From NCBI GenBank assembly GCA_033239525.1, contig BSYO01000010.1, positions 10,009,379 to 10,073,378 of the forward strand: 64,000 nucleotides of DNA. The letters run 5' to 3'. The DNA is from Nepenthes gracilis (taxonomy: Eukaryota; Streptophyta; Magnoliopsida; Caryophyllales; Nepenthaceae). Under the pieces are notes generated by a model. It saw nothing but the letters and a program-made list of their open reading frames with translations, did no database searches and had not been told where the DNA came from. Positions 4,859-52,930 of the stretch are shown here, piece after piece. The position numbers and the translations under genes were made by a program. Numbering within the stretch: position 1 is the first letter of the stretch; each line of letters starts with the position of its first letter.

Positions 4859-4980
4859 TTTTTTTTTTGGTAAGTAAGAATTTTGGATTATAGGGAGAAA
4901 AATATTACAGAATCCATGTTTTTACTCCAAGTATTTTGACTTGGAGTAAAAACATAAATTGCTAGGGCATTCCCCGATCA
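4859..4980 (-). repeat. LINE-family 3' tail with hairpins (L-A)
   Basis: T run, GGTAAGTAAG, then perfect arms ATGTTTTTACTCCAAGT and ACTTGGAGTAAAAACAT, then GCTAGGGCATTCCCCGA. The basal pair TTTTT/AAAAA differs from the TTCTA/TAGAA of other copies, which is compensatory. Confidence 0.85.
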
Positions 4981-7275
4981 TCAAAAACATCAGAAAAGGA
5001 AAAAAATAAAACAACTCCTCTAGGAGGACAAGCGATTAACATAATCAACAAAATATGGGACCAGACTAATATATGGCCAAACACAAAAGCCGCAGCTACC
5101 AATCCGACAGGAGCATACAGCAAACGAATCGCCATTCCAGCCATCGGAGAATCAGCCAAATGCTTCTTCAGCAATGCAAGATTCCAACGACCGTTTGATG
5201 CGAGAACCTAAAGGGATCATCCGATAGGACAGGACTTCAGCACCAGCAACCACAAGAGAGGGGCCCGCACATAAGCAGCAGCCACAACCCAAGAGGATCA
5301 CTGCAAAACCAGCAAAAAAACCAGCAGCGATTGCCAACCGCAGTCCACTCATGAAACCAGCAGGCGCGCAGACCAAGACCTACCGGCCACCTAATTGCGA
5401 CCCAATATATCCAGTTCCCCCAATGTGCGAAAGATCACTTAAAGAATGCAACATGCCTTTCAAAGAAGACCACACCGAGAGAAACTAGCATGCAAACTGA
5501 GGGCAGCATCACATCAGCTGAGAAACAGGTAGGCCGACTCTAACTCAAGCTGTTTCAGCAAAGACAACCCACCCACACCAACAAAACCAGCTATATAGCC
5601 TTCACCCAACTACCAACTGCAGAAATAGCGAAGCCATACTTGTGTATCAAAAATTACTCATACATTCAACATGCACCACCAATATCAAGAGAATGGAGAA
5701 AAAGACAACCAAGCAAAGAATAAAGAACCATGCTCATACTCAAAGATGCCCTTGACTTGCCAACCTCATGGGCAAAGACACTGCAACATCGGAGCAGCAT
5801 TAATGCCACGCACTCAAGGGACACCGGAGCAAAAACGGTATCACCATTAATGCAACATAACACAGCACTACATTCCCACCAATTCCAGGCTCAAGAACCA
5901 TGTCAACCTACCTACCACGCCAAAACAATCGCACTCTAACCAGCACAATTGGAAAACTCAAGGTGTGAATACTGAGAAAGAATTTATTGCTGCAAGTACC
6001 TCCACATTAACAAACAATGGGCTCACAAAGCTTGGAGGCAGGGAACAAAGCCAAAGCACGGGGTCACTTCATATGGAGAAATCAACAAGATAAGTACAAA
6101 ATGACCACACGGCAGGGGAGCACATGTGATCAACCAGTGCACCTCAATCATATGCAATGAAACCAGCATTGAACCGAGCTAAGCCATCAACCAAAATCCA
6201 AAATGCCATAGCCTTAGAACAAATGGAATCAGCAACGGAGTCCACTAAGATAAACACCATGGCAGCGATTTCAAATCTCCAAGGAGATGATAGCAAAAGA
6301 ATATTTCCAAGACTTCCACAACGTTAAAATAGACCATGTAATTAGGCTTTGCCAAAACCAGACAAAAAGAATACGAAAAAATCTAGTATAATGTAAAAGA
6401 AAACAGCAACAAAATTAATCGGTTGCTGCATCACCACAACACCTGCTAAGGTGGTAGCCACCATCACCACATCGATTAAACAACCTCGGACACACTAGCC
6501 ACATAAGATCAACCACACAAATCGATTTGCATTTACACCGAATCAAAACTGGCGGCCTCCAACAACAAAGATCATTGAAATTAGATGGCATCATACACCA
6601 TCATTGGCTGCCCATTCTCAACAAAGCGTATAGATCAACAACAACATCATGTATTCCTTCTGCAACCAACAACATGCTGGGAGGTAAAAGTATTCAGAAC
6701 CCGGGATTAAGTCAATTGAACAAAACCATCTACAACGAAACATGGTTCCAACAAAGCTACAACACTTGAAATCAGGACCAACAAAGAGCAACCAAAGGGT
6801 TGAGAGGTCCGATGCCCCTAGCTATAAAGGGGATCAAACAAAAATAACCGGATGCAACATCAATGGAGAAAGGAACAAGAAATAAACTACTTCAAAAGGT
6901 TTTTTTTTTTTTTTGGAAAGGCACCTGACAATGCAGAATTCTTCTCTTTTTTTTTCTATCTTTTTTTTTTCTTCTTCTTTTTTTTTCTTTTTTTTTTCCA
7001 AGTAGAGGAGATAAACTAGAAGAGACAAGGTTCAACAGAGGAAAGGGCCAAAGCACCAACTAAATACCCTCAAGAGCAAAGGGAAGTAGACAAACTCTGA
7101 CGCAGAGAAAAAATAATAATGAGTAAATCAGCAAAAAGGAAAGAAAAAAACGAGCTACACCTAAATAGGGGAAGAAGAGAAAGACCAGGAAAACAGAAGA
7201 CGCAAGGAAAGGGAAGGAAAGAAAAACAAAAATAAATAAAAAAATATGTATGATTATTTTTTTTTATTTTTTATT
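4981..7275 (-). other. L-A 3' UTR, long and non-coding
   Basis: About 2.3 kb without recognisable coding capacity between the ORF2 stop and the tail. It is TG/CTG-rich in the sense of the element. It includes T-rich and TTC-rich low-complexity runs at about 6900-7000 and an AT-rich run at 7240-7280. A 3' UTR this long is unusual for an L1-type element, but it is also seen in L-C (about 2.2 kb). Confidence 0.65.
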
Positions 7276-10200
7276 TTATAAGTTCCAACGCCTAGCCAAC
7301 GAGTGGTTAGAGCGACCAGCACGAGGCAATGAGGCCTTCAATTTATCCCGAACAGCGTTTGATATCTGAGAGCATATATGGGAAATGTCCTGAGGTAAGG
7401 ATTTCTCAAAGATACGGTTGTTACGTTCTCTCCAAATGTAATAGACAGTTGCCACAAGATAAAGCATTTAGATTCTTGCCTTTCCAGATGTGGGCAGCCC
7501 AATTGACGTTTTGAGACCAGTTTGGGTATGGCCAATGAATATCGGCATTCCGTTGGATGGTGGTCCACACGGATTTGGGGCGAGGAGAAGAAAAAGATGG
7601 TAATGATTTTGCATCCGAGTCACAAAGAGAGCATGTGAGGGATAGGTTTGGGGTTGCGAACCCGGGTCGAATGTATGATGCTTCTTTGATTGCCAACCAA
7701 AGGGTAAAGGCGTGTGAATATGGAATGGGCCCAGACTAACTTGGTCCAACACAGTTTCAGCTTGGGAGGGTGGATAAGGAGGTAGGCAGTCTTAGCCGTG
7801 AAGACATTGGCTACCAACCCAATCGATGTTGGGTGGATAGTTGGGCATATTTTCGGCGAGACTAGAAACCTCCCGATCATAAGGGTTAGGCCAAGCCCAA
7901 TGGTCATTTCGATTATCCGAGAAACCTTGGCGCCCTGATAACCCGGTGATAGTACGAATGCGGTTGACCGGACCGAGGGGGCCGATAGGATGCAGTGGTC
8001 ATGGCTGAGATAAAGGTATCCTTGCCATCACCAATGATCTTAGTAGTGTGAGCGCACGGGAAAGGACGAAGATACATGATTTAGCTCCAGGAGCGAGTCA
8101 GGGACTTTGAGAGTCCAAATACAATGGTCCTTGATTCTAGTCTTGTGGATCCAGGAAGACCAAGCCGAATCAGGATCTTTTGACATGATGTGCCAAAAGA
8201 GTTTACAGATGAGGGCTTTATTTTGAGCTTGTAAATTCTTGAGACCCAATCCTCCTTCGTTCTTCGGGTAGCAGATATCGGTCCAGGGCACTTTTGCAAT
8301 AGCCTTTCCCTCCGAAGAACCATTCCAAAGGAACCGCCTTAAGATGCAGTCGATTTGCTTGAGAATGAATTTGGGTAAAATGAAAATCGAAGCCCAATAG
8401 AGGTGGACAGATGATAGAATAGAGGCAATCAATTGTAGACGGCCACCGAAGGAGAGCCACCTATTCTTCCATGATTTAATGCTGGTAATTTTCTCTGAGG
8501 GCCGTATAATCTCGAATTGCCGGGTAGAAATCGAGGACGCCAAGATATCTCGATGGGGAGAGATCACTTTAAAACCCAAAACATCAACGATATGAATAAG
8601 GGCAGTGGTCTTTAGAGCATAAGAAATCTCTCTCTTATTTATGTTCACCGGAGGGGCTGGCCAATGAAATTCCTCAAGGCAATCCTTGAGAATTTGGATG
8701 GAGCATACGTCGGCATGAGAGAAGAGGAGAAGATCATCGGTAAAGGCCAAAGATGACAATGTGAGTCACATCACACTTCCAATAAAATTTGAAATTATTG
8801 TTCCTGCGGGCCTTGAGGTCAATGATACATTCAACACCTCCATCGCCAGCACAAAAAGGTAGGGAGAAATTGGGTCACCTTGGCAAAGACCCTTCCCCCC
8901 TTTGAAAAATCCAACCGCTTCCCCATTAATATTAACAGAGTACGAGGGGGTGGTAATACATTGCCTAATCCAGTTTATCATTTTGGGCGGGAAATTCATG
9001 ATGGTCAGGACAGAGATGATGAAGTCCCAATGAACAGAGTCATAGGCTTTCATAAGGTCAATTTTCATAGTACACTGAGGAGGGTCATGACCCAGATGGT
9101 ACTTATGGAGGAGTTCTTGGGCCAGGAGAATGTTGTCACTGATTTGGCGACCCGCCACAAAAGCCGTTTGGCACTTATCAACCAGATAAGGTAACGTCAT
9201 CTTTAACCGATTAGCAATGATCTTCGAGATAACTTTGTAGATGACATTACAGCAGGAAATGGGACGGTAGTCAGAGACCAGCCGAGGAGACTGGACCTTG
9301 GGGATCAAGCTAATGATCGTAGAGTTCATTTGTTTGAGAAGTAAACCATGATTGAAAAAGTCACGGATGGCTTCACAAACAGATGGACCCACAATGTCCC
9401 ATGATTCCTTGAAAAAAAGGGCACTGAATCCATCAAGACCCGGGGCCCTATAGTCACCTATAGAGAAGATCACCTTGCGGATCTCATCATCACTTACCGG
9501 GCCCACAAGAGGGTCCATAAGCGATTCAGGCATAGCATGAAGGATGAAGGGCAAAGCCGATCCGCATCAGTCGACCCATACGTGCGTCCAGTCCCAAGAG
9601 CCTTACTAAAGTGATCCACAATCAGATTTTGGACATTTTCGATACCATTGGTAGGATTCCCATTGTGATCAAGGAGAGAGATAATCTGGTTCTTATTGTT
9701 GTTTCCATTCATCGTCTTAAAAAAGAATTTGTTACATTGATCACCTTCTTTGAGCCACCTTATCTTAGCTTTTTGCTGAGTAAGGTCGGCTTCCTTGGCC
9801 AGTGCATCATGGTAAGCATCCTTACATCTGCGTTCCTCGAGATGACACACCAGGTTAGAAGGGGTTTGACCCTGGATATCCTCAATCTTTTTCCTCAGGC
9901 AGACAAGCTCCTCGTGGACATCACCCTCGTAGACATTAAGCTTTTTCAGAGCCTTTTTCACCATCTTAAGACGAGCCACAAGCCTGAACATAGGATAGCC
10001 ATTGGTAACATCCGACCAAGCATCTGCAACCAAAGGATGAAATTTAGGGGATTTGGTGAGAAATTATTGAACCGGAACATCCCGCTTTTTTTGGGGGAAA
10101 AACCAGAAGGGAGAAGAATATAGGGCGAATGGTCAGAAAGTTGGGCAGGGAGAAAAATGGCTTTAGCCCGACAGAATTTGTCGAACCAATGCCCATTCGC

Positions 10201-10812
10201 AACAACACGATCAAGCTTTCTAAATATACGAATGGAAGAGTCGCGGCCATCATTCCAGGTATAGTGCATGCCTTCATGGCATACGTCATCAAGATCACAA
10301 TCTCTAAGACAATAATCCAGATCAAATGAGCTTTTATTGTGCCAGATGCCACCCAGGGCCTCGTTTGGGGACCTAATGGCGTTGAAATCCCCAAGGGTAG
10401 CCCACGGGAGATCGCCCAGATGGCTAGACATCGCCCGGAGGCTATCCCATAGGAGCCTACGGGAAATTTCTGAGTTAGCGCCATAGATAAAGGACAAAAG
10501 GCAGCGGGTATTCTCCTCGAGGAACAATACCTCAAGATGAACGACTTGTTCCTCCGAGGCGAGGATGATGCACGAAACCAAAGTGGGGTCCCAGCCAACC
10601 CAAATCCGACCACTCGGAGACGCAGAGTAGTTCATAAACCAAGACCAGTTAGGTTTGATTCTAGTGGAAACACTCGGAGAGTTTCTTTCCGCAACCTTGG
10701 TTTCCACCAAGCCAGCAATGCTACACCTATGGGAGCTAATGAGGTTGCAGACTTCATGGGCTTTTACAACCCCATTAAGACCCCTCATGTTCCAACAGGC
10801 AATACTAGTCAT
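7276..10812 (-). pseudogene. L-A ORF2: endonuclease-reverse transcriptase-zf-RVT, broken
   Basis: ORF2 nicks target DNA and copies the element RNA onto it. Domains in order: an N-terminal apurinic-type endonuclease (Glu near residue 37, GDFNAI near 141, SDH near 226); the reverse transcriptase (fingers with APGxDG and LIPK, then QGDP near 8870 and a catalytic box reading FTDD near 8735, where related copies have FADD); and a C-terminal zinc region ending in RRWNL near 7276. Length is about 1180 codons, normal for plant L1. It is broken by frameshifts near 9960-10030 and 9500-9554, a TGA at about 8766 and several breaks after 8040. The start ATG overlaps the ORF1 stop. Confidence 0.92.
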
Positions 10813-12938
10813 GAGTAAAGGGTGAGGGGGGGATGATTTTTAATCCCCCGAGATTTTTTATTTTTCCGAGAAGGAGCACACTCCCCATTTTTGGAAGAAG
10901 TACCAACGCTTTCCAAGCAACCAGAAAATCCAGATAATGGATCGCTACGATTGGTGACCATCAGTGCATCTGGTGTGAAAGGTGGAAGATGATTAATAGC
11001 ACCAGACAAACCTGGATCGAAAGAGGCCCTTTCAAGCCTCATATTTTCAGTATTGGGAGGCACCGGGCACCTGTAGGGACTCCCAGGCCCAGGAGGGGTA
11101 GACGAGTCAGAAAGCCGGTTAGAAGAGTCGTCAGCGGTAGGGCCATAAGGAATACTCGGATCGGCCTGGATCACGGCGGGTTCCGAAACAGGAACAGAGC
11201 AATTGTGACTTAGAGGGGGTTCATGTTCACATCCAATGGGCATCGCAGAGGCTATCTGGATAAGGCTTTCTGACAGGTCATTTAAATTTTCCTCCTGTAA
11301 GGCCATAAACGAGTTAGAAGTCATTATGGCCTTATGGTCTATATCAATGGTCAGAGGGGCCACCACGGCCGGAGATTTTGATCGGGGAGGCCTCTTAGGA
11401 GGAGCAAGGGAGGGAATGACACCCCTAGAATTGGCCTCCTGCTTAGGAACCCAAGAAGTTTTGATTGGGTGATTCTTATTCCTACTCTTTTCAGGAGCGG
11501 CCCTGCGCACCGGCCTATTCTGGTACTCAAATTTGATTTTGCATAGATGATCAGTCGGATGTTCGGCGCAGCCTCTAGCATGAACCTTTACAGATTCCGG
11601 CCGAGGGGCATTGACCCCCAATTCAACACAAACCCTCGCGAAACCCAATCGTTCGAGTTTTTCAGTGACAGGGTCTAAAAAGAGAGGTTTGCCAACCGCA
11701 CTCGTGATCCAGCTTAATCCCAACGGGGTCCAGTATTCAACTGGGATCCTAGACATGGTGATCCAGATAGGGAAGGATTTGTGATCCTCACGGGATAAAA
11801 TCATTCCAGGCCACCATTTTTTAAGAAAGAACAGATGGCCAGCAATCATCCACGGGCCATTGGCCAGGCATTTTTCTAGCATTGAGCTTGAGGAGAAGCG
11901 GAAGAAAAAGAAACCCGATTCGTTTCCAGCCACATGTTGTAGTTCGAATCACTTCCATATTTTCTTGGTGATATAGCTAACAACATTAAAATGGATAGGA
12001 TCTCCAACGAAATATCTAACAAGGGTAGTACCCCACAAATCCGACCCCTGTTGGATAACATCGGGAGGGGGGGACAAAATGATATTCTCCAAATCGGAAG
12101 AATTCGGAGGGTAGAATTTTAGAAGACACTTACCTCCAATAGCCCTTTTCTCAACGATTGACGCCCAAGAGACGCCCGGCGAGCAGGACCCAAGAGCAAT
12201 GGTAGGGCAAGAGGCATCAGCATTGGTGGACACATTGGCACTGGAAGACGGAGGTTGCACCGTGAGTAGTCTGGCATGTTAAGACGAACCTGGAGTGGGG
12301 GCTTGAGGACCAGACGAAGAATCCACCGACACCTGGGCTCCATGCCGAATTCCCGAAACAGAAGGAGGGACGGAAGAGCATGATGAGGGCCCGACAGCAC
12401 AGGGATGGAGAGTTGTAACGCTCGGATCACCAATGCACTCGGTGACTGGCAATGCCACAGAGAGGGACTAAGATGTGAGAGAAGACACAGCCGAAGCCCG
12501 AGAAGCAGGATGCGAAGCCGGTCCCAACGGATAGAAAGAATCCACAACGGGGATGGAAGAGACATTCGATGGAGGCGAAGGAGGAAGAGAGGATAGGCAG
12601 CCGACCGATTGTTGGAAATCAGTGGGAGGAGGATGAGAAGAAGGGGAAAGAGATGGGTGCACAGAGTTCGGAGAAACCGCCACAGAGGGGGACGAACGGG
12701 AGCGCCGAGTATGGCGTCGCCGGCAAGAGGTGGCGGACAAAGGTGGGTAGACGATGTCGGGCGACGGGGATATGGAGGGGGCCGAGTCGGATTGATGAGA
12801 GGCGCCAAGAGGCCAAGGCGTGGCTGGTCGGGAGAAGACGAGAGACGGGGAGGGTTAGGAGACGGGAGAAAGAGGGACGGGGGAGAGAGGGTTCGAGGGA
12901 GCCGGAAAGTAGGATGAAGAAGAGTCAACTGGCGCCAT
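10809..12938 (-). pseudogene. L-A ORF1: Pro/Ser-rich plus DUF4283 RNA-binding protein, broken by stops only
   Basis: A single reading frame of 710 codons runs from ATG 12938, set in a GGCGCC palindrome, to a TGA overlapping the ORF2 ATG. The N-terminal third is Pro/Ser-rich and probably disordered. The DUF4283-type domain spans about 12130-11600 (KFYPP, LWGTTLVRYF, FFFFRF, TPLGLSWITSAVGKP). No zinc knuckle remains after it. The C-terminus is Ser/Pro-rich with a basic end. In-frame stops sit near 12857, 12470, 12283 and 11950, with no frameshift. The TGA near 11950 fits a CGA-to-TGA change. Confidence 0.88.
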
Positions 12939-13026
12939 GGGCGCCGGCAAGAAGGAAGAAGGCGGGCAAAGTGGGGTTTGAAAAACAGGTTCAGCGAGAG
13001 AGAAAGCTATGGACCCAAAAATAACA

Positions 13027-19616: not shown

Positions 19617-19740
19617 TTTTTTTTGGTAAGTAAGTAAATGCATTAAAATGAATGAAAATTTACAAAAGGATGTTCTAACTACAAGTGTTTTGCCAACTTA
19701 GAATTAGAACAAAGAGCTAGGGCATACCAGAGCATCACCA
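19617..19740 (-). repeat. LINE-family 3' tail with hairpins (N4)
   Basis: T run, GGTAAGTAAGT, then arms ATGTTCTAACTACAAGT and ACTTAGAATTAGAACA, then GCTAGGGCATACC. Confidence 0.8.
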
Positions 19741-19959
19741 TGAACCGAATCATGTTAAAGAAACAACAATTAGATGTACATCATCTAAGCCAGCCACTTA
19801 GATCCCGACCCACCTAGACCAAATAACAAAAACAGGCATATTCCCAATTTTATGTAATACCGCTTCTCCTTACCCCAAGCCAGCAGATGCACATGTAAAT
19901 CGGCATCAGCTAGAGCCAGCAGCAGCTACCACTCCGCCAAAAGAACGAAACAAGCAAAA

Positions 19960-20400
19960 TGCACTCTGGCAAAAATGCACTCCGGCAAAATGCACTCCGG
20001 AAAATTGCACTCCGGATTCAACTGACTCAATCCTACTCCGGCAAAAATGCACTCCGACAAAATGCACTCCGGCAAATTGCACTCCGAATTCAACTGACTA
20101 AATCCCACTTCGGCCTTTTAACGAAACAGGCACTCCGGATGCGAAGCCACTCCGACCTCATCTCACGCATATCCACTCCGGCCGATGAGGGAACAAAAAG
20201 CCACTCCGGCCATAAAGCGAACAATTCACTCCGTCCTCCTCACCACCACCTCAGAAGAAGCCACCTTGAACACACCACCCCACTCTGGATAAAGCGGGCA
20301 AATCTACTCCGTCCAAATGCACTCCGGATACAATAATGCACTCCAGATAAAGAAGCAAAGCCACTCCGTCCAATGAGAACATAAAACACTCCGCGCCCCC
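19960..20400 (-). repeat. ACTCCG/CGGAGT degenerate array in N4
   Basis: CACTCCG(G/T/A) occurs about every 15-30 bases on the plus strand, so CGGAGTG is the sense word of N4. Spacers vary, so it is an interspersed motif array rather than a fixed-length tandem repeat. Confidence 0.85.
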
Positions 20401-20529
20401 CCCCTTTTTTTTAAAGGACTCAGCAGGAGCATACCATTCAGTGCTTCCCTGAAAGTTGACAATCGTAAAGGTTTTCAACGCATCAAAAGGATCGAAAACA
20501 TCTAAAAAAGATCATGGTCTTTTCTGCAG

Positions 20530-21490
20530 TAGCAACGCCAAAAAGCCCCAAACCAGAGCTGCACGAGCATCCCCCAACCCGTCCAACAAGTAGGAACAAA
20601 TAGGCAGAGGAACAACAGAGCCAGCGATAGAGGACATTCGAATGCTCGATCCAAATGAGCGGTCGACAACCGAAAAAGGGCTTGATTAGAACACAGCATT
20701 GCCAACATAAAAAACATACTACGGGGCAAGGCCAATTTCCAACAACAGCCAATAATAAGCTAGAGGAGCAAACAAAGCAGGAGCTGTTGTGGAGGAAAAG
20801 TCCTCAAATCAGCAACCCACACCAGAAAGAAATGCTCCACTGATAGCCAGAAACTGAAGGGGCGCCACCTTACCCGAAAGATCACTTGCAAAAAGTCTCA
20901 AGCCAGAGTGCACGAGTACCCCCCAGACCGTCCACATGGAAGGGACCCAAAGACAGAGGATCATCGAGCCAGCAGCACAGGACCCTTACCAAATAGCAGA
21001 TCAGGGAACACCGCATCAGAAGGAGCACCAGCGACCAAACCAGGCCTCTTCCAGCTCTTCAGCAACCCAGCCAAGGAATTCTAATCCAGAGCTGCACAAG
21101 CCCCCCAACCCGTCCAACAGGAAGGAACGCTCAAGCAGAGGGCTTCAGAGCTAGATCAAAGGACATTGTCAGTACAAAATTCATCACCTCTTCTGACCGC
21201 ATAAAAGGAAACAAATTTTGTTCCACAGATGATCAAGTGAAGACATCTCAAAACAGGAGAACAGTGAACTACAGAAACGAAATGAGCCACTTCTATGACC
21301 CAGAAGAAGCATCCTGGCCGATTTAGTCCATTCACAACCACCATATCAATCATTCAGAAGGAAATTGGCAATATCACAGGCCAAGCCAATACCACCGCAT
21401 TGAAGGAACTCCAGTGCCAATCAAGGCCAAGGCTAGCTCTTCGGCACCCCTGCCGAGAGAACCCAAGCCAGAGCTGCACGGCTCCCCCAA
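20530..21490 (-). repeat. Three to four copies of the GTTGGACGGG-GGCTGTGCAGCTC module
   Basis: Near 20540-20595, 20890-20945, 21065-21125 and 21460-21490 the plus strand repeats AGAGCTGCACG, then CCCCCAACCCGTCC, then AACAGGAAGGAAC with small changes. The same block occurs in N3, N10 (43575) and N11 (55345). Its role is unknown. Confidence 0.7.
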
Positions 21491-21587
21491 AACCGGAGTG
21501 TATTTTGTGTCGGGTTTGTAGTATGTTGACCTCCTGGAGGACACAGTGCTGTGTTAAAATTTTTTGGTGTCTTTTGATGTACCAAGG

Positions 21588-36284: not shown

Positions 36285-36995
36285 ACTCCGACTTTAATAA
36301 ATGCACTCCGTCCTTTGAGTAAAAAGCACTCCGGCTTTCAATAAAAAAAGCACTCCGGATTTATGAAACTTTGACTTTTAAAAGTACTCCATCCTTTGAG
36401 TAAAAAGCACTCCGTCCCCTTTAGTGAAAAGCACTCCATCCTATGAATAAAAAGCACTCCGTCCAAAGAGCACTCCGGCCTCTTTTAAAAACAACTTCGG
36501 CCTTAATATGAAAATGAGCACCGACTTTGTATAAGAAAATAAGCTCCGGCCTTAATATGAAATGAACTCCGGCTTTTGAACTCCGCCTTTTGTTAAAATG
36601 AACTCCGGCCACTGTCAAAAAGAACTTGGCCTTAATATGAAAATGAGTTCCAGCTTTGTATAAGAAAATAAGCTCCGGCCTTAATATGAAATGAACTCCG
36701 ACTTTTGAACTCCACCTTTTGTTAAAAAGAACTCCGACTTTTTGAGAATAAGAACTCCGGCTTTTGTTGATAAAGAACTCCGACTTTTAAACTCCGCCCT
36801 TAGTCAAAAAGAACTCCAGCTTTTGTTGATAAAGAACTCCAGCTTTTTGTTAAAAAGAACTCCGGCTTTTGAACTCCGGCTTTTTGTTAAAAAGAACTCC
36901 GGCTTTTGTTGATAAAGAACTCCGGCTTTTGTTAAAAAGGAACTCCGACCTTTAAGGAAAGACCTCCGGCCTTGTTAAGAAGATCTCCGGTATTA
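36285..36995 (+). repeat. ACTCCG array in LTR-3
   Basis: GCACTCCGT, GCACTCCGG and GAACTCCGGCTTTTGTT-type units recur every 20-30 bases with A-rich spacers. The plus (sense) strand carries ACTCCG, the opposite sense to the LINE arrays. Confidence 0.9.
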
Positions 36996-37086
36996 AGACG
37001 TTAAGAGAAAGACCTTATGGTGTTCGGTTAATTGCATTATTTGACTGTGATTTTCGGAAAAGCATGAATTGTGGATCTAAGTATTT

Positions 37087-37314
37087 GATGGCCGAGTAGC
37101 TGCAAGCCTTAAATGTAGCCGTTATTGAGATATGATGGCCGAGTAGCTGCTGGCCTTAAATGTAGCCGTTATTGAGATATGATGGCCGAGTAGCTGTAGG
37201 CCTTAAATGTAGCCGTTATTGAGATATGATGGCCGAGTAGCTGCAGGCCTTAAATGTAGCCGTTATTGAAATATGATGGTCGAGTAGCTGCAGACCTTAA
37301 ATATAGCCGATTTT
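37087..37314 (+). repeat. 47-bp tandem repeat, ~4.9 copies
   Basis: Units begin GATGGCCGAGTAGCTG at 37087, 37134, 37181, 37228 and (as GATGGTCGAG) 37275, each with CCTTAAATGTAGCCG. Copies differ at a few sites; the last is more diverged and shorter. Confidence 0.95.
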
Positions 37315-38004
37315 TGACGAAAATGAATTTGGAAACAGAAGCATGTTTTCGAAAGTCAATGTGCATGAAAATGACTTTGGAATCTGTTTGCATCAACAAC
37401 TCTGGCCATGTTTTATGAAACTGCACATATATATGCCTCTATTGCATTATGCCTGTTCGTCACGAGTTATGACTCTGCATGATTTCTGCATGAGAGTACC
37501 TTGCTAGGCCTTATAGCTCACTCTTTCTATTTTTCAGATGACGATGATGACGAGTTTATGCCTGACGAAAAAAGAGTGATGTCTGAAGGGACTGGATAGG
37601 CAGGATAGCTGGCCGGAATGTTAAGCAGCAAAGCAACAAAAAAAATTGATGTTTTCTCTTTTGATGTTTTGGGTCAGATTTGTATATGGCCTCTATTGTT
37701 AGAAGTCTATGAATATTAGTATGCTTCCGTATGATGTTATGGTTTGAGTAAATTGTGATTTCTAGTGGCATCTCAGTTGTTTCGGGACCTTCATGTCAGA
37801 CCGACCTCTTCATTGGCCGGTCATATAAGAACCAAAAACTTTGGAGGCCAACTCAAAGAGTTCGGCCTTAAGCGATCTTGTGCACGCGTTGTGTTGATAA
37901 AAAAGAAAAGAAAAATTTTGAAGTCCACCCTTTTTAACAAAAGTGTATGATCGGTTTCGGTTGACGGGCAGCCGAATGCGGTGGAATGTGTCTGGTCCGT
38001 CACA

Positions 38005-39129: not shown

Positions 39130-39246
39130 TTTTTTTTCGGTAAGTAAGGTGAGATTAAAATAAACAAAATTTACAATACGATATTCTAACTCCAAGTGTT
39201 TTGCCGACTTAGAGGTAGAACAACACGCTAGGGCATACCCCGAGCA
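39130..39246 (-). repeat. LINE-family 3' tail with hairpins (N8)
   Basis: T run, CGGTAAGTAAGG, arms GATATTCTAACTCCAAGT and ACTTAGAGGTAGAAC, then GCTAGGGCATACCCCGAGC. Confidence 0.8.
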
Positions 39247-40127
39247 TTATCATGATCAAAATCATGAAAAACAAACAAAAAAATTAAATAGCAAAACACA
39301 TCTAGATGAATAGTTCAATTGCCTTCAGTGTGGAAATGGCCAAGTCGACATCCATAGCATGATATTATTTGCATATTCCATGAACGAGAGCTAAAAACGA
39401 ACCAGAGGAGCAAAGTAGCTTGATACCGGACAGTATCAGTAGCCCGTGATCATCAGCCATCATTGTATAACTTGGATGGATAAAATTCAATGGTACTTCA
39501 ATCAGCTTCATGAGCAAACAAAGTCTTCATTAACCATCACTTAGAATCCATAGGAACGCCAGATCAAGTTAGCATCATTAATCAGAGCTGGAATGAGCCA
39601 CTCCAATAGCACAGTATCCATCAAGTATCAATAGCACGTGACCATCCTCCTTCATTGTGTATATTGGATGGGCAAACTTCAAGGGTATATCAATCAGCTT
39701 CACAAGCAAACAATGTCTTCAGGAACCATCTCTTAGAATCCGTGATGATTCCTATTCAAGGTGGCTTCATTACCTAGTGACAAGAATGGGCCACTCCCAT
39801 AGAATCGTGACCTGCGAGAAAGTAAACAATTTTTTTTTGGGTAAAGAAAGATTATCCCACATAATCAGCCGTACAGGCTAGGGATTTTTTTTTTTTTGAA
39901 ACGAGAACCTAGAAACAATGATGGATGAGAAAACCAACAGGCCCGAAAAATTTAGCAAATGAGGTCAGTTAGTGTCTAAACTGTAAGCAACCGAACAATC
40001 GCCCAAACAAACCAAATGAAGGTCTAGTCCAAATGTAAGTAATCAAAAGATTATTATTATTATTTTTTTGGAACATACCGTATCTCAAGGGAATGAATAA
40101 CAAGAGATATCCAATCCTTTAAAACTG
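39130..40127 (-). mobile_element. N8: short non-autonomous LINE derivative in N7 ORF1
   Basis: It is flanked by GCTGATGAATCACTGCC (39113-39129) and GCTGATGAATCGCTGCC (40128-40144), a 17-bp TSD with one difference. The minus-strand tail lies at 39130. The 1.0-kb body is non-coding with internal T runs near 39830, 39887 and 40060. Two loose internal copies of an ATCAGCTTCA...CAATGTCTTC block occur (39510 and 39693). Confidence 0.88.
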
Positions 40128-41099: not shown

Positions 41100-42120
41100 T
41101 TGTGGAGTTTTGTTCACTAAACGGCCGAAGTGGCCTTGCGTGATGATGCGTGAGATAAGGCCGGAGTGGCCAAGCATCCGGAGTGCCTTTTCGATAAAAG
41201 GCGGATTTCTTTTTTTCCGTAGTGGCCTTGCGTGATGAATCCGGAGTGCTTTATGTACTCCCATAGGCCGGAGTGGCATGCGTGAGATGAGGCCGGAGTA
41301 GCCATGAATTCGGAGTGCCTTTTCACAAAAAGGCCGGAGTGGCCTTGAGTATTTTTGGAAAGTTGATGAATCCAAAGTGCCTTATGTGCACTAAATTACT
41401 TACCAAAAAAACTTATGTGCACTAAATAATTGGAGTGGCCTTGTGTGTGATTAGGCCGGAGTGGCTTTGTTGAAGCCGGAGTGCCTTGAGTGGCCTTGTG
41501 ATTCTGGGAGGCCGGAGTGTTCAAGGTGGATTTGTTTCTTAGTGGCTGGAGTGTTTTATGCTCTCCTTGGACGGAGTGGCTTTGTCTCCTTTATCCGGAG
41601 TGCATTTGTTCTTATATCCGGAGTGCATTTGGATGGAGTGGATTTGTTCTCTTAATCTGGAGTTGGCCTTGCCGAAGTAAAAAAAAAAAAAATTAGTTTA
41701 TTTCCGGAGTGTTCAAGGTGGATTTGTTTCTTGGTGGTAGGAGTGTTTTATGCTCTCCTTCGACGGAGTGACTTTGTTCCTTTATCCGGAGTGCATCTGT
41801 TCTTATTTTCGAAGTGCATTTGGATGGAGTGGATTTGTCCTCTTAATCCGGAGTTGGCTTTGCTGAAGGAAAAAAAAAACTGGAGTGGCTCGATGCTCCC
41901 TTCTACCCGAAGTGGCCTTGTGATTCTGGGAGGCCGGAGTGTTTTCGCTCACTTTGGACGGAGTGGCTTTGTTGATATATTCGGAGTTCCTTTGTCCTCT
42001 TAAAGGGCGGAGTGGCCTTGGTTCACTTTATGGCTGGAGCGGCCTTGTATGTGGCATGGACGGAGTTGAATTGAGATTGCCACTCTCGTCTAGTTCTTCA
42101 ATTGCCATTATCGGAGTGCG
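41100..42120 (+). repeat. CGGAGTG array in N9
   Basis: CCGGAGTGGCC, CCGGAGTGCC, GACGGAGTGG and similar words recur about every 20-35 bases on the sense strand of the element. Confidence 0.9.
41397..41411 (+). mobile_element. Micro-insertion: TACTTACC plus A7, with 16-bp TSD
   Basis: TACTTACCAAAAAAA sits between perfect copies of CTTATGTGCACTAAAT (41381-41396 and 41412-41427). TACTTACC plus A is exactly the 3' terminus of the LINE family. It adds 31 bases to the array. It is best read as target-primed reverse transcription that stopped after eight templated bases. Confidence 0.88.
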
Positions 42121-43134: not shown

Positions 43135-45519
43135 CCTTTCAAATTTATTTTTGAAATTTGAACTCGGCGCCTAGGGTTCTGCCTCCTCTGGCTGGGCAGC
43201 ACCGGAGCCGGCCTCGGCCGGTCTCCTAGCTGCTTCGCCCAGTTCCTCCCCTGGTTGCTTCTCGTCTTCGGCTACGAGTTCGGTGTCCTCTGCGACTTCG
43301 ACTGTGGTTGTGACGGTTCCTATCCGCTGTATCAGATTGTCGTCATCGGCAAATTTTTCCTCTGAGGCTCAATAGCTCTCTCTAGACCGAGTCTTTCTCT
43401 TCCTCGGTTCACCCCCTGGCGAGCGCAAAGGTGTGGTTGGGATTTTGGACTTCAAGCCTCTTCGATTTCGATGCTATCTGTAGCATTTGTCGGCTCATGT
43501 GCTGCTCGAAGGTTCTGGCGCAGTCGTAAGTCTTTGCTGCCGACTCTGATGATCCTCTTCCTGTGTGTTCACTCTAGTTGGACGGGTTGGGGGAAGCCGC
43601 ACAGCTCGGGATTGGAACTATTAGGCGAGGGACTGAAGAGCTGGCCGAAGATCTGATTGGTTGCTAGAGTCCCTTCAGTTGTGATGAGTTCCTTCTGTAT
43701 GCCGCCTTCTGATTGGGCTGTCGGCTCCTGCAAGTTGCCCCCTTTCTTCGTCTTGGGATTTTTTGTAGAAGTCCTTCACCCATCAGGAGCGGATGTTCCA
43801 GAGAGAAGTTTTGGCTTCTCTTTGGATTCTCAAATTTCAAATTTAAAATTTGACCTTCGGTGGGACTCTCGCCTCCTCAGATTAGGGCTGGGCTTCCATG
43901 CCTCAGGCTGATGAGGCTGCTGGAACTTTTTGTCCCTGTTCTAGTTTCGATGCGGAAGTTCCGACTAGCTTGCTGTTTGTTGCAGCTCAGGAACTGCCTT
44001 TGGCCGATTTCATTTGCCGAGTTCGTCTGCTGACTTGTAACTGTGGCCATATGACGATTTCAGATGCCGAGTTGGAGTTTCTGCCTAAATGACGATTTGG
44101 ATTTGGTGCCCACTGCCGATTATAAATGCCGATTTCAAAAGGCCGAGTTGGATTTGCTGCCCAAATGCCGATTTGGTTTTGCTGCCCAAATGCCGACTTA
44201 GTTTTGTGGCCCATGTGCCGATTTCAAATTGAGGCCGAAAATGTTTGCTGACTTGGCATGTCAAATGTCGACGTGGCCTTAAGGATGCCGTTTTGGACCG
44301 CGCTTTGAACAGCCAATCTGGAATTGTGGTGCGGGGATGGTTCTGCTCCTGAGTTGCTGATCTTGTTTTTTGCTGAGGTCTACGTGGATCTGAAGCTTTG
44401 GACGGATTGGTTGCTTGTTTAGTATTTGGTTGGTTTAACTTACAGAGGGTGCTGGTCAGCCCTCTGTTTTAGGTTGGGTTGCGGTAGTTCTTTATTCTTT
44501 GGTTTGTTGGATGTTCGCAGTGATCTTCTCGCTATTGATCAAAGTGAACTCTGATATTTCTTCTGTTGTCATAGGTTCTTTGTTGTGAGGTGATTACCTC
44601 CACTTTGCTATATCTTGAATTCTTTGGGCTGTAGTAGTAGTCTTGGTTGGTTGCGGTTTTGGTGGAGGTGGCTGAACCGATTTGGACAAGCTGCTGTGGC
44701 TGCTACTTAGTCTTGAGTTTGGCTGCAGCATGTTGGGCTATTTTTTGCCCTTTCTTACCAATGGATGTTGAAGCTGGAATGGTCGCTTTGGTTCTTGTGG
44801 TAGCTGGTGGGGTTTGCTCTTGGTGGTGAAGGAAGCGTGGTTCTGCTATGCTGGAATGTGGAGGACTGCCCAGGTGTTGCTGCCCTAGTTGGCACTGTTC
44901 CTGCCCTGTCATTGCATTTTGCTGCTACTGTCGGGTGTTGGGATGCTTTTGTCTGAGCCGTCGGAGATGCATCCCGACTGACTATCTCCTGCTGGAGCCT
45001 TGATGGAGCAGATTCAGTGTAGTTGGTTGCTGGGTGAAGACACTAGTATGGCTGATTTTGGCTTTTGGAGGTTGGCTGTGACTGGCGCATCGCTGGCTCT
45101 AGTTTACGCAGGGAGAGTTGCTGATGAAATTTTGGTTGCTGTTGGGTCATGGCTCCTGAAATCATCCGGGCTGTTTTCTCTTTGTTAGACTGTGCTGCTC
45201 CTACTTTGTGGGCAGCTTTGTTTTGCTATAGCAAGTTATTGCGGGGCGATCGGATGTTGTTGATCCTGTTGCCTCGGGAGTAACTGATTTTGAATCTGAT
45301 TATGTAAAATGACTATGTTCATTTTCTATTTTCTGTTAGATCGCTCCTCTTAGAGGTTTTTTGAGGTATTCTCTGTTGTACCAGCTGCTCGGGGTATGCC
45401 CTAGCGTCTTATGTTCTAACTCCAAGTCAAAAAACTTGGAGTTATAACATAGTTCTTTGTAAATTTTTTTCTCCCTTTAATCCAAAATACACACTTACTT
45501 ACCAAAAAAAAAAAAAAAA
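43135..45519 (+). mobile_element. N10: 2.4-kb non-autonomous LINE derivative
   Basis: It is flanked by GCATGGCCTGTAGCT at 43120-43134 and 45520-45534. It starts with the 5' UTR AAATTT/GAAATTT segment, CTCGGCGCCTAGGG and GGAGCCGGCCTCGGCCGG. A second 5'-UTR-like block with AGAGAGAAG and AAATTTCAAATTT lies near 43800-43860. The body is TG-rich with one GTTGGACGGGTTGGGGG module (43577) and tandem TGCCGATTT words (44000-44260). No ORF1, ORF2 or RT. Confidence 0.88.
45386..45519 (+). repeat. LINE-family 3' tail with hairpins (N10)
   Basis: GCTCGGGGTATGCCCTAGC, arms ATGTTCTAACTCCAAGT and ACTTGGAGTTATAACAT, CTTACTTACC and an A run. This is close to a family consensus. Confidence 0.88.
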
Positions 45520-47421: not shown

Positions 47422-49136
47422 TGTAACGACCCAGATTTTAAACATAGAAAATTCCGGTCATTGGATCCGGTCAACGACAGTTGACCGAAAAAATGTAATA
47501 AGAAAATAACTTGGCGTCAAGAAGAAATCACGTTCGGCCCTGCTTGATGAAAAGAAGTCCGGAATGTTCTTGATAAAAGAAGTCCGGACTTCCTTAATAA
47601 AAATCCAGACCGAATTCCCTTGAAGAAAAGAAGTCCGGATGTTCTTGAAGAAGAGAAGTCCGGATTTCCTTGAAGAAAAGAAGTCCGGATTTTCTTGAAG
47701 AAAAGAAGTTTCGATTTCCTTGAAGAGAAGAAGTCCGGATTTAGATGTAAAAAGAAGTCGGATTTGCTTGAAAGAAGCACTCGGATTTCCGAGTAAAAAG
47801 AAGTCCGATTTGCTTGAAAGAAGCACTCGGATTTGGCAAGTAAAAAAGAAGTCCGGATTTGCTTGAAAGAAGCACTCCGGTTTCGATGTAAAAAGAAGTC
47901 GGATTTAATGAAAATGAAGTCGATCTGTAAGGACGGAATGCGTATGTGTGAAGTAAAGGCGGAGTAGATTGGGTTCAATGAGATGAAAAGCGAAGTTAAT
48001 ATTGAAAGGAGTAATCCGGTCAACGTAAAATATTGACGTGAAAACGTAAACGAATGGATGGGAGAGGAAAGAAGAGCGAAATCCGGTCAACACCAATAGT
48101 TGACCGGAAGGAATTAAGTCCGGTCAAAGAAAATTTATAAGGAAACACGTTGGGAAGGCACGGCCAAAAATAATTTAGCTATTCCCAAAACTTGTTGGAA
48201 AATGTAAATCATAAGTGAGCCTCTATGGAAAATTTAAAATATAAATGACACCTTGGGAAAATGTAAAGCCATAAATGATGGCCACCTAACCCACGGGCTA
48301 TAAACAAGGACTTAAGAATATCAGAAAAAGGCACCCACTAGAAACTCCTAGTAAAACAAGAGACCGAAGGCTAAGGCAAAGTAGAAAAGGAATTAAGGCA
48401 AGATACTCACCCCCATTTCTAAAACTCATATTTATTTATGTTGCTATGAAAGTATATGATATTCCGTATGAAGTATGCCTTTGCTGTTTTATGACTTATC
48501 GTTATGAAATGCATGTTTAAAAAGAAATTATGTTACGCATGATGTTAGATTTATTCTGTTTATGATTAATTGTCAATTGTTATGAATTTTGATAAATGCA
48601 TGTTTACGGAAAAGAATTTAGGCCTTAAGATGGAACAAGAACTCCTGCTATTGATCTCTGGTTTCTGTCAAAAAGATCTCTGAATTTCAGATAAAAGACC
48701 TCTGGCATTTTTACAGAAAATGATTTAGAGCTCCGGCATTTTAGAGAATGACTTCAAATTTAGAGCTCCAGCATTTTGGAAAATGAACTTCGGATTAGGG
48801 CTTTGATTAACAGTAAATGAATTTCGGATTTGAAAGCTTTGGATTTTAATAGAAAATGCACTCCGAATTTAGAACTTCTGATTTTAACAGATACCCACTT
48901 CGGATTTAGAACTTTGGATTTTAACAGAAATGCACTCCTGATTTAGAACTTCGAATTTTAACAGATATGCACTCTGGATTTAGAACTTCGGATTTTAATA
49001 GAAATTGAACTCCGGATTTTAGAGCTTCAAATTTTGAAAGAAATTGAACTCCGGATTTACGAACTTCAGATTTTGAAAGAAAAGCACTCCGGATTATGGA
49101 AAAGAAAAGCACTCCGTCCATTTTAAAAGAAGCACT
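47422..49136 (+). repeat. G1 5' LTR, 3' part deleted
   Basis: It aligns by eye with 50826-52546 of the 3' LTR. It includes AAGTCCGGATTT-type repeats (47530-47900), GGTCAAC/GTTGACC words, a TATA box and ACTCCG units (48730-49136). The last 1.27 kb is missing; the junction with pol lies in GCACTCCGT. Confidence 0.9.
48299..48306 (+). promoter_or_regulatory. TATA box of G1 5' LTR
   Basis: TATAAACA in the context GGGCTATAAACAAGGAC. The 3' LTR has TATAAATA at the same place. Confidence 0.6.
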
Positions 49137-49138
49137 CC

Positions 49139-49680
49139 GTTGTAGCCGAGGAAAGGCCAACGTTGTTGCCGACGCATTAAGTAGGCAGCCTGGGATGCTA
49201 GCTAGAATGCAAGTCAAGCAAAAGGAGATGTTGGATTGTCTCATGAATTATAATGTCCAGCGTTATGTGCATGGAAAGCAGATGATTTTGGCGTACCTTC
49301 AGGTTCAGCCAGAAATGATTAATAAGGTAAAGGGATGTCAAACGAATGATTCTTTTCTTGTAAAGATCATGGGCGAGCTACATAAAGAATCCCGAAGTGA
49401 TTTTCAGATTTCACCGGATGGAGCATTAAGATTTAGGAATCGATTATGTGTGCCAGACAATAAAGAATTAAAGGAGAAATTCTTAAGGAAGCCCATCGAT
49501 CCCGTTATACGATTCACCCAGGAGCCAATAAGATGCATCAGGATTTGAAGAAAACATTTTGGTGGAGGAATATGAAAAGGGATATTGCAACTACGTGGAA
49601 AAGTGCCTTATATGCCAACAAGTAAAGGCGAGAAAAAGCTGACCGTCTGGGTTATTGCAACCAATGCCATTTCAGGCTGA
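49139..49680 (+). pseudogene. G1 pol: RNase H end and integrase zinc-binding part
   Basis: It begins at the RNase H end GKANVVADALSR, passes a linker region and reaches the integrase HHCC zinc-binding region (49490-49626). There the Cys pair KCLICQQ is visible in another frame. A frameshift near 49500-49550 breaks it. The upstream RNase H and RT are deleted. The start ATG of the open frame lies in the LTR and is not a real start. Confidence 0.85.
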
Positions 49681-49698
49681 AAATGGGAAGACATTGCC

Positions 49699-50138
49699 AT
49701 GGATTTTGTAACGGGTGCGCTAAGGACGCCAAGGAAGCATGATGCTATTTGGGTGATTGTCGACCGGCTAACAAAGTCAGCTCATTTCCTGGCAATCAGA
49801 ACGACTTACTCCCGTGATAAATTAGCCCAACTGTATGTAAACGAGATTATCAGACTTCATGGTGTGCCTGTCTCTATTGTATCAGATAGAGACCCTCGCT
49901 TTGTTTCATGGTTCTGGAAAAGTCTACATAAAGAATTGGGTACCGAATTAAAATTTAGTACTGCTTTTTATCCGCAAACTGACGGTCAATCAAAACGGAC
50001 TATCCAGATTCTCAAAGATATGTTAAGGGCCTCGGTCTTGGAGATGAAAAGGACTTGGGATGATTCATTAGCTCTTGCAGAGTTTGCTTATAATAACAGT
50101 TACCAGGCCAGCATCGGCATGGCTCCTTTTGAGGCATT
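49699..50138 (+). pseudogene. G1 integrase catalytic core, catalytic Glu lost, interrupted
   Basis: The core shows the first Asp in MDFVTG, the second in SDRDPRF (residue 63 from 49699) and, exactly 35 residues later, Lys in DGQSKRT (codon AAA, 49993-49995), where the DD35E integrase family has Glu. A G-to-A change explains it. The core is then cut in the APFEA motif by the 31-base micro-insertion event. The element could not have been mobilised by this protein. Confidence 0.92.
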
Positions 50139-50154
50139 TTCTTTTTGGTAAGTA
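50139..50154 (-). mobile_element. Micro-insertion: TACTTACC plus A-rich end, minus strand, 15-bp TSD
   Basis: The plus strand reads TTCTTTTTGGTAAGTA, the reverse complement of TACTTACCAAAAAGAA, between perfect copies of TCCTTTTGAGGCATT (50124-50138 and 50155-50169). Eight bases match the LINE 3' terminus. Insert plus TSD add 31 bases and shift the integrase frame; the frame continues at 50170. Confidence 0.9.
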
Positions 50155-50169
50155 TCCTTTTGAGGCATT

Positions 50170-50743
50170 GTATGGAAGAAAATGTAGGTCTCCAATTCAC
50201 TGGGAGGAACACGGAGATAAAAGGATTTTGGGTCTAGACATTATCAAGGAGACAACAGAAAAGATAAAGATATTACACGAGAATCTCAAAGTAGCCCGGA
50301 GTAGACAAAAGAGCTATGCAGACCGGAGGAGATCTGCATTAGAATTTGAAAAAGGAAATTTTATATTCCTAAAGGTATCTCCATCCAAGGGGAAATACAG
50401 ATTCGGGGTAAAAGGGAAACTGAAGCCACGATTTATTGGCCCTTTTGAAATTCTAGAAAGGATCGGAGAAGTAGCTTACAGACTTGCACTACCTCCAAAC
50501 TTGGCAGAAGTACATGACGTGTTTCATGTATCAATGCTTCGAAAGTATGTCCATGATCCTACACATGTAATTGAGTATGAACCTTTGAGGATCGACAATG
50601 ACTTGTCCTATATAAAAGAACCAGTGAAAATCTTGGATCGAAGGGAACAGAGACTACGCACCAAATCAATCGCTCTAATAAAGGTGCTCTGGAATAATCA
50701 CACACCCGAAGAGGCAACTTGGGAACGAGAGGAAGAGATTTGA
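50170..50743 (+). pseudogene. G1 integrase C-terminus with chromodomain-like end
   Basis: The frame continues from YGRKCRSP, typical of the gypsy integrase after the core. It runs through a GPFxIxxxxG segment and DVFHVSMLRKYV, to a chromodomain-like end (ILDRREQRLR, TWEREEEI), and stops at 50743. Chromodomain-type ends help target gypsy elements to chromatin. No stop interrupts this part. Confidence 0.88.
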
Positions 50744-51664
50744 AACAAATACCCATATTTATTTTCTCGAGGTTAGTGACTTTATTTAAAATTTCGAGGA
50801 CGAAATTTCTATAAGTGGGGGAGATTGTAACGACCCAGATTTTAAACATAGAAAATTCCGGTCATTGGATCCGGTCAGTGACAGTTGACCGAAAAAATGT
50901 AATAAGAAAATAACTTGGCGTGAAGAAGAAATCACGTTCAGCCCTGCTTGATGAAAAGAAGTCCGAAATGTTCTTGATAAAACAAGTCCGGACTTCCTTA
51001 ATAAAAATCCAGACCGAATTCCCTTGAAGAAAAGAAGTCCGGATTTTCTTGAAGAAGAGAAGTCCGGATTTCCTTGAAGAAAAGAAGTTCCGATTTCCTT
51101 GAAGAGAAGAAGTCCGGATTTCCGATGTAAAAAGAAGTCCGGATTTGCTTGAAAGAAGCACTGCGGATTTTCGAAGTAAAAAGAAGCCCGGATTTCCGAA
51201 GTAAAAAGAAGTCCGGATTTGCTTGAAAGAAGCACTCCAGATTTCCGATGTAAAAAGAAGTCCGGATTTAATGAAAATGAAGTCCAGTCTGTAAGGACGG
51301 CATGCGGTATGTGTGAAGTAAAGACGGAGTAGATTGGGTTCAATGAGATGAAAAGCCGAAGTTAATATTGAAGGAGTAATCCGGTCAACGTAAAATGTTG
51401 ACCAGAAAAACGTAAACGAATCGATGGAGAGGAAACAAGAGCGAAATCTGGTCAACACCAATAGTTGACCGGAAGGAATTAAGTCCGGTCAAAGAAAATT
51501 TATAAGGAAACACGTTGGGAAGGCACGGCCAAAAATAATTTAGCTATTCCCAAAACTTGTTGGAAAATGTAAATCATAAATGAGCCTCTATGGAAAATTT
51601 AAAATCATAAATGACATCTTAGGAAAATGTAAAGCCATAAATGATGGCCACCTAACCCACGGGC

Positions 51665-51672
51665 TATAAATA
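51665..51672 (+). promoter_or_regulatory. TATA box of G1 3' LTR
   Basis: TATAAATA in GGGCTATAAATAAGGAC, about 840 bases into the LTR. Confidence 0.65.
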
Positions 51673-52089
51673 AGGACTTAAGAATATCAGAAAAAGGCAC
51701 CCACTAGAAACTCCTAGTAAAGAAAGAGACCGAAGGCTAAGGCAAAGTTGAAAAGGAATTCAGGCAAGATACCCACCCCTATTTCTAAAACTCATGTTTA
51801 TTTATGTTGCTATGAAAGTATATGATACTCCATTATGAAGTATGCCTTTGCTGTTTTATGACTTATCGTTCAAATGCATGTTTAAAAAGAAATTCATTAC
51901 GCATGATGTTAGATTTATTACATTTATGATTAATTGTCAATTGTTATGAATTTTGATAAATGCATGTTTACGGAAAAGAATTTAGGCCTTAAGATGGAAC
52001 AAGAACTCCTGCTATTGATCTCTAGCTTCTGTCAAAAAGATCTCTGAATTTCAGATAAAAGACCTTTGGCATTTTTACAGAAAATGATT

Positions 52090-52930
52090 TAGAGCTCCGG
52101 CATTTTAGAGAATGACTTCAGATTTAGAGCTCCGGCATTTTGGAAAATGAACTTCGGATTAGGGCTTTGATTAACAGTAAATGAATTTCGGATTTGAAAG
52201 CTTTGGATTTTAACAGAAAATGCACTCCGAATTTAAAACTTCTGATTTTAACAGATACACACTCCGGATTTAGAACTTCAGATTTTAACAGAAATGCACT
52301 CCGGATTTAGAACTTCGGATTTTAACGGATATGCACTCTAGATTTAGAACTTCGGATTTTAATAGAAATTGAACTCTGGATTTTAGAGCTTCGGATTTTG
52401 AAAGAAATTGAACTCCGGATTTAAGAACTTCGGATTTTGAAAGAAATCACTCCGGATTTACGAACTTCGGATTTTGAAAGAAAAGCACTCCGGATTATGG
52501 AAAAGAAAAGCACTCCGTCCATTTTAAAAGAAGCACTCCGTCCCTTTGTTGAAAAAGCACTCCGGATTTTTGGTAAGAAAGGCACTCCGTCCCTTTGAAA
52601 AGAAAAGCACTCCGTCCTTTTGAAAAGAAAGGCACTCCATCCCTTTTAAGAAAAAGAATTTCGGACTTTGTTAAAAATGTACTCCGTCTTTTATGAATAA
52701 AGAACTCCGGTTTTGATGATTTTTGGATTTTAGAAAAGAACTCCAGCTTTGACTAAAGAAACGAACTCCGGCTTTGTAAGAAAAGAACTTCGGCTTCAGG
52801 AACTACAGCCCTCCCGTTTGAAAAGAACTCGGAAATTTAATGAACAAGACTCTGTCCTTTTTATTGAAAAAGAACTTCGGATATTGAACTTCAGATTTTT
52901 GAAAGATGAACTCCGGCTTTTGATAAGATG
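52090..52930 (+). repeat. ACTCCG array in G1 3' LTR
   Basis: GCACTCCGGAT, GCACTCCGTCC and GAACTCCGG units about every 20-30 bases, with AACTTCGGATTTT interspersed. The 5' LTR has the matching part at 48730-49136. Confidence 0.9.

Follow-up and report, generated by a model that had tools for sequence, protein, structure and literature searches.

Sixteen bases enclosed by two copies of a 15-bp sequence interrupt the integrase region of a gypsy element in the carnivorous plant Nepenthes gracilis. Very probably, these bases are a plant L1-type LINE copy with extreme 5' truncation, left behind by target-primed reverse transcription. The reading is based on their identity to the LINE 3' end, the A-tail, a target-site duplication (TSD) of LINE-like length, uninterrupted relatives of the host element and many equivalents in the genome. 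We infer that the LINE's own enzyme was at work and that its early stop was synthesis aborting soon after the tail. Insertions of this kind are called stubs below, and the window is the whole 64-kb stretch of DNA that was analysed. Its relevant features are listed in Table 1.

The insertion and its host element

The earlier note had described a 15-bp duplication around 16 bases, and coordinates and letters are exactly as given there. In reverse complement the insert reads TACTTACCAAAAAGAA, with the A-tail directly before the second TSD copy. Its nick site is C|AA, not T|AA. Since an A(n) tail is generic, LINE identity is carried solely by the seven to nine element bases. The further claim, that the 3' end of a LINE was retrotransposed here and carries an A-tail and a TSD, is borne out, as the bases match the LINE terminus and have equivalents at other sites of the genome.

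Judged by domains, the surroundings of the insert code for the end of a Ty3/gypsy polyprotein, located between two presumed LTRs. On the left side of the insert an open frame extends to ...MAPFEA; on the right side, reading continues with ...PFEALYGRKC in a different frame, the two sides having been translated separately and unjoined. The motif PxxxLYGxxC is unbroken in 115 of 120 protein relatives among the matches listed, and 86 of these 115 have at least eight residues of the same protein before the motif. The relative with the highest identity among the matches listed comes from Nepenthes gracilis itself (85% over 74% of the query).

To look at empty sites, the 752.5-Mb assembly (133 contigs) was searched with the host 15-mer TCCTTTTGAGGCATT, which occurs 171 times, its reversed control being absent (0 occurrences). 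Among 100 of the 171 places listed, only the pair in the window is spaced by 31 bp. The earlier note had proposed a comparison with other gypsy copies, and this came out as it predicted: all nine relatives read in the same genome have a single uninterrupted 15-mer and lack the 31 bases. For eight of them the 15-mer itself was the criterion of choice, and the ninth (L021) is a gypsy copy met by accident; all are paralogous family copies in the same genome, not the orthologous locus of another species. The closest copy read (L007) is 94.9% and 93.3% identical on the two sides. With nine of nine relatives read being free of the insert, the alternative that it is an old feature of the gypsy family was rejected. 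Diverged tandem repeats of 20-50 bp (ACTCCGGATTT-like) form long arrays at 36300-37320, 47527-49140 and 50931-52640, in the presumed LTRs as well as in other elements.

Table 1. Position and nature of the features detected in the window
Feature	Position	Strand	Description	Basis
First TSD copy	50124..50138	+	15 bp, TCCTTTTGAGGCATT	read from sequence
Stub insert	50139..50154	-	16 bases; minus strand TACTTACC + AAAAAGAA (8 element bases + A-tail)	read from sequence
Second TSD copy	50155..50169	+	TCCTTTTGAGGCATT again	read from sequence
Other stub of the window	41381..41427	+	TSD CTTATGTGCACTAAAT 41381-41396, insert TACTTACCAAAAAAA 41397-41411, TSD CTTATGTGCACTAAAT 41412-41427	read from sequence
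Integrase core left of insert	49681..50136	+	rve, E 1.6e-5, 25.5 bits (below cut-off of 32.6)	Pfam
Open frame, integrase C-terminal part right of insert	50072..50743	+	PF24626 SH3_Tf2-1, 92.9 bits	Pfam
Direct repeat of host element, presumed LTR	47422..49095	.	92.2% identical to 50826-52458	LTR status inferred
Second presumed LTR of host element	50826..52458	.		LTR status inferred
Long LINE copy	4859..13010	-	8152 bp between TSD copies, 16/16	TSD + domains
Domains in long LINE copy	4859..13010		RVT_1 8766-9566; Exo_endo_phos 9958-10839 (below cut-off); DUF4283 10809-11948	Pfam
5'-truncated LINE copy	43135..45519	+	2385 bp, TSD 15 exact (18 with one mismatch)	
5'-truncated LINE copy	19617..21491	-	1875 bp, TSD 15/15	
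5'-truncated LINE copy	39130..40127	-	998 bp, TSD 16 of 17	
LINE 3' UTR end	45359..45505	+	two conserved hairpins + TTACTTACC terminus; one of 16 aligned copies	

The source LINE family and its 3' hairpin

Sixteen copies with related 3' ends are present in the window (positions 175-56405). They have in common two hairpins, a T-rich spacer, a TTAC-repeat terminus and an A-tail. Directly before the A-tail, exact TTACTTACC is found in 10 of the 16 aligned copies and close variants in the other six. In seven long copies the A-tail is followed by TSDs of 12-18 bp, some with one mismatch. Besides the 8152-bp copy, spans from TSD to TSD amount to 998, 1875, 2385, 6077, 7166 and 7794 bp; some hold nested insertions, so not all are clean element lengths, and the pair at 6077 bp consists of 12 exact bases. 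For the remaining LINE 3' ends of the window no convincing TSD was detected within 9 kb. A LINE insertion of intermediate length, about 300 bp with an 11-bp TSD, was met elsewhere in the genome (L027, 5490, minus strand).

The source family is probably of L1 type, as it displays the layout of plant L1 elements, with endonuclease-like, reverse transcriptase and ORF1 parts in one element. The 8.15-kb copy scores 95.9 bits for DUF4283, 104.1 bits for RVT_1 and 21.3 bits for the endonuclease, the latter below the cut-off of 24.5. Among the matches listed, a few of the 120 relatives are named LINE-1.

Further, we examined the two helices of the 3' UTR in an alignment of the 16 window copies (alignment A1). 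Of the cells in their 24 pairs, 89.3% are paired. Changes on both sides affect nine of the 24 pairs, eight of these nine being located in the larger helix, compared with 4.9 after shuffling (1 in 500 shuffles as high) and at most six when partners were slid; this outcome is favoured by the structure having been partly taken from the same alignment. The smaller hairpin beside the long one is G-rich/C-rich.

These features suggest a LINE family with a "stringent-type" 3' end. According to a review (PMC3747384), the plant L1 clade includes "stringent" LINEs whose 3' hairpin is conserved, as described there for a single monocot lineage (monocot 1a of ME1); the review also mentions a 3' end that a SINE and a LINE have in common in a green alga. 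As far as that description goes, the plant stringent LINEs and the Nepenthes family both have a 3' poly(A) as well as a 3' hairpin in which changes compensate each other. In contrast to the monocot hairpin lineage, compared by description only, the Nepenthes family belongs to a plant presumed to be a eudicot; by our count its stem comprises 17 pairs, and its terminus is TTACTTACC(A)n. The hairpin in a presumed eudicot L1 family would thus add to the monocot case reported in the review.

A second stub in the window

The other stub of the window lies at a distance of 8.7 kb, within a LINE-rich region. Both were recovered by a blind scan that was given no expected sequence and accepted every A-tailed insert of up to 100 bp enclosed by direct repeats of 11 bp or more. 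It returned three places in total, the third being an 11-bp pair inside a repeat array. When inserts of up to 400 bp were allowed, two further places appeared, a 344-bp insert between 13-bp repeats and a 143-bp insert between 11-bp repeats; neither is a LINE stub.

It could be objected that such a direct repeat arose by chance, a view for which the shortness of the insert is the only point. However, 881 windows of equal size simulated by a first-order Markov model yielded, in total, a single repeat of at least 15 bp with an A-tailed insert of up to 100 bp, against two in the real window, and no simulated A-tailed insert in these windows started with TACTTACC. Together with the genome-wide pattern described below (1081 places against 28 for its reversed form), the simulation led us to reject a chance origin, the probability of which we consider negligible, and the earlier argument that two stubs in one window are not accidental holds. 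The equal total of 31 bases added in both cases, which had been pointed out as well, is on the contrary a coincidence: over 40 stubs, aligned TSDs range from 10 to 22 bp and the stretch from body to second TSD from 1 to 30 bases.

The scan also bears on double-strand-break repair, in which a staggered break would have been filled in and patched with filler from a LINE tail elsewhere. Plant break repair is known to produce short direct duplications that contain filler, LINE tails are plentiful as donors, and the filler-DNA tandem duplications of plants resemble stubs in having a short direct repeat around a short insert. Filler would nevertheless be expected from any repeat and with any endpoints, whereas the inserts read end at the LINE 3' terminus with an A-tail, mostly with a clean 5' start and TSDs of LINE length (places in the genome were chosen by the LINE terminus). 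In the blind scan of the window there was no A-tailed insert of up to 100 bp of other origin, except for the 11-bp array pair. Break repair is therefore regarded as improbable.

No stub was found in 200 kb of other stretches of the genome that were read, which is not unexpected at an estimated density of 2-3 per Mb. Matches to TTACTTAC(C)A4 number 12 in the 64-kb window (one of them the stub at 41397) and 3 in 200 kb elsewhere.

Stubs across the genome

Since long LINE copies usually have T before TACTTACC, the pattern [ACG]TACTTACC-A6 (VTACTTACC-A6) enriches for stubs. It occurs at 559 + 522 = 1081 places, its reversed form at 28. From these, 100 places were listed and 61 read: 38 are TSD-flanked stubs, 13 are LINE 3' ends according to a loose motif test and 10 belong to neither class. 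For a place to be called a stub, its flanks, aligned with gaps allowed, had to exceed the 99th percentile of cross-locus decoys. This first scoring covered 62 matches in 60 pieces, of which one, in L040, lies outside the pattern (T in front), hence 61. A wider search gave 37 of 61 and a stricter ungapped test 31 distinct junctions; both took centred matches only (61, 40 and 40 in the wider search), and the strict test merged identical junctions. Mutual copies within the samples are L091-L093, L153/L154 and L160/L161. Among the 38 called stubs, L038, L057 and L069 are doubtful and L040 is a tandem tail, while L071, below the threshold, looks real.

In the 38 stubs and the two of the window, aligned TSDs have a median length of 15 bp, and 32 of the 40 stubs have their first base exactly where the TSD stops. 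Insertion points appear to be enriched for T|A(A): 21 of the 40 have T at position -1, 22 have A at +1 and 26 at +2, with a bias towards A because leading A's of the TSD are indistinguishable from the tail.

These junctions also tell against another template RNA with identical bases, U1 snRNA. TACTTACC also corresponds to its positions 2-9, and this identity of eight bases speaks for such an origin. U1 would, however, add A in front of the stub; the preceding base is A in 17, C in 12, G in 10 and T in 1 of 40 cases (T is rare because the pattern excluded it), and in 32 of 40 it belongs to the TSD. Moreover, nine-base stubs start with TTACTTACC like the LINE, in a tally made without ATACTTACC as a rival class, and U1 continues with UG, not A(n). 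On account of the preceding base, the nine-base starts and the A(n) continuation, U1 origin is disfavoured and seems highly improbable.

The neighbouring lengths were counted likewise. The seven-base pattern [ACG]ACTTACC-A6 occurs at 949 places (control 84) and the nine-base pattern [AGT]TTACTTACC-A6 at 2575 (control 11). Strict stubs of the exact class make up 12 of 40 seven-base places read, and strict stubs 16 of 40 nine-base places. Bodies of both lengths match LINE sequence. Scaling of all strict stubs gives ~285 (12/40 x 949), ~550 (31/61 x 1081) and ~1030 (16/40 x 2575), in sum ~1,900, the samples being small and non-random (places from contigs 1-3 in listed order). As a loose estimate, LINE insertions keeping only 7-9 bases number 1,500-2,000. 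This figure covers the seven-, eight- and nine-base classes; stubs of ten or more bases would fall mainly in the class CTTACTTACC.

Longer stubs exist as well, since the nine-base class includes inserts of 10 (L111), 12 (L158), 13 (L116) and 28 (L126) bases. Inserts of 11, 14, 21, 27, 28, 36, 38 and 40 bases also occur in the three classes, several of them doubtful and with AT-rich flanks. Three eight-base stubs (L097, L104 and L107) have A instead of T as first base (AACTTACC); this A is unexplained by the TSDs and may stem from either a variant source or a misincorporated last base.

Length of the retained body

The earlier note had suggested that eight bases are a preferred stopping point. 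Junctions with no base shared between stub and target account for 10 of 40 seven-base, 18 of 61 eight-base and 6 of 40 nine-base places, which corresponds to ~240, ~320 and ~390 insertions when multiplied by class counts. At such sample sizes these values are indistinguishable; a stop at eight alone is thus unsupported, and the idea was dropped once the seven- and nine-base classes had been counted by one rule. With counts covering the classes of 7-9 bases, the distribution might continue to rise towards shorter bodies, as far as insertions consisting of the tail alone.

Microhomology was considered as a cause of the stop. It is unsupported for eight-base stubs, where 13 of 31 have one or more bases in common with the target (0.29 expected, P = 0.086), as well as for seven-base stubs (2 of 12 share a base). 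In the nine-base class 10 of 16 share a base with the target (0.34 expected, P = 0.018), a figure that is biased since the pattern also admits eight-base stubs with a T flank. The clean 5' start of 18 of the 31 eight-base stubs, without shared bases, speaks against the view that pairing at the junction chiefly caused the stop.

Proposed mechanism

TSD length, A-tail and 3' anchoring point to target-primed reverse transcription. The target would be nicked by the LINE endonuclease and the LINE RNA primed at its poly(A) tail. Reverse transcriptase would then copy the tail and just the last eight body bases before stopping, and the short cDNA would be joined across the other side of the 15-bp staggered cut. 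The body being so short, either the enzyme stopped almost on leaving the tail or the template ended there. Our preference is for an abortive start, during which the enzyme may still have been bound to the hairpin. As a conjecture, the covarying 3' UTR hairpin, a few tens of bases upstream, might be the anchor that has to be released before elongation.

The other course presumes decayed or cleaved LINE RNA, comprising the last 7-9 bases and poly(A), that was copied to its end. Two loci (pieces of 155-173 bases) have tandem structure: L060 contains two TACTTACC(A)n units in tandem, and in L040 a TACTTACC(A)n unit comes after a LINE tail and is itself followed by CTTACC(A)n. Template jumping between short RNA ends would give such tandems, but they could also have arisen by subsequent insertion into an A-tail. 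The 18 of 31 eight-base stubs without a base in common with the target at the junction are likewise in favour of a short template; on the other side, 5' ends are spread over 7-9 bases and more, with no single cleavage point. On the whole, we consider a short template rather unlikely.

A broader proposition can be put forward tentatively, with more doubt than belief: that most target-primed events of the LINE abort within about ten bases past the tail. Stubs of 7-9 bases, invisible to annotation, would then rival or outnumber recognisable copies and record nicked targets, and their range of lengths would be set by the transition from initiation to elongation on the 3' UTR hairpin.

Comparison with known insertions

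Severe 5' truncation of LINEs is textbook knowledge. Stubs and mammalian 5'-truncated L1s have in common the TSD, A-tail, 3' anchoring, 5' truncation and perhaps a weak T|A(A) preference of the first nick; the difference consists in the stub body of 7-9 bases. For truncated human L1s a mean of ~900 bp is given (PMC2837659), and a mouse study of very short L1 copies analysed those of 100-400 bp (PMC11084082). For some twin-priming events, the human study proposes that the first reverse transcriptase detaches while still within the tail, which would be a related early stop. LINE insertions with bodies of 7-9 bases were not found in open-access literature by title and abstract opening, most subscription journals being outside this search. 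What appears to be new, as far as this search goes, is the abundance and the extreme truncation, to 7-9 element bases; the mechanism itself is already known. With respect to the plant filler-DNA duplications discussed above, stubs differ in that their insert is a LINE 3' end with A-tail.

Lengths of LINEs are normally derived from copies long enough for repeat-finders, and the first step of reverse transcription is therefore invisible. Owing to the distinctive last bases of this family, remnants of 7-9 bases are recognisable and this earliest step becomes countable: the genome holds an estimated hundreds to thousands of natural products made by enzymes that began copying and then stopped. The stub set could also map where the LINE cuts. 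An insertion of this kind, adding 31 bases in either window case, can disrupt a reading frame and would pass as a small indel.

In antisense, the insert at 50139-50154 and other stubs read T(n)GGTAAGTA. GGTAAGTA matches the consensus 5' splice site. Stubs would thereby scatter splice-donor-like sites through genes, and those in genes could act as donors.
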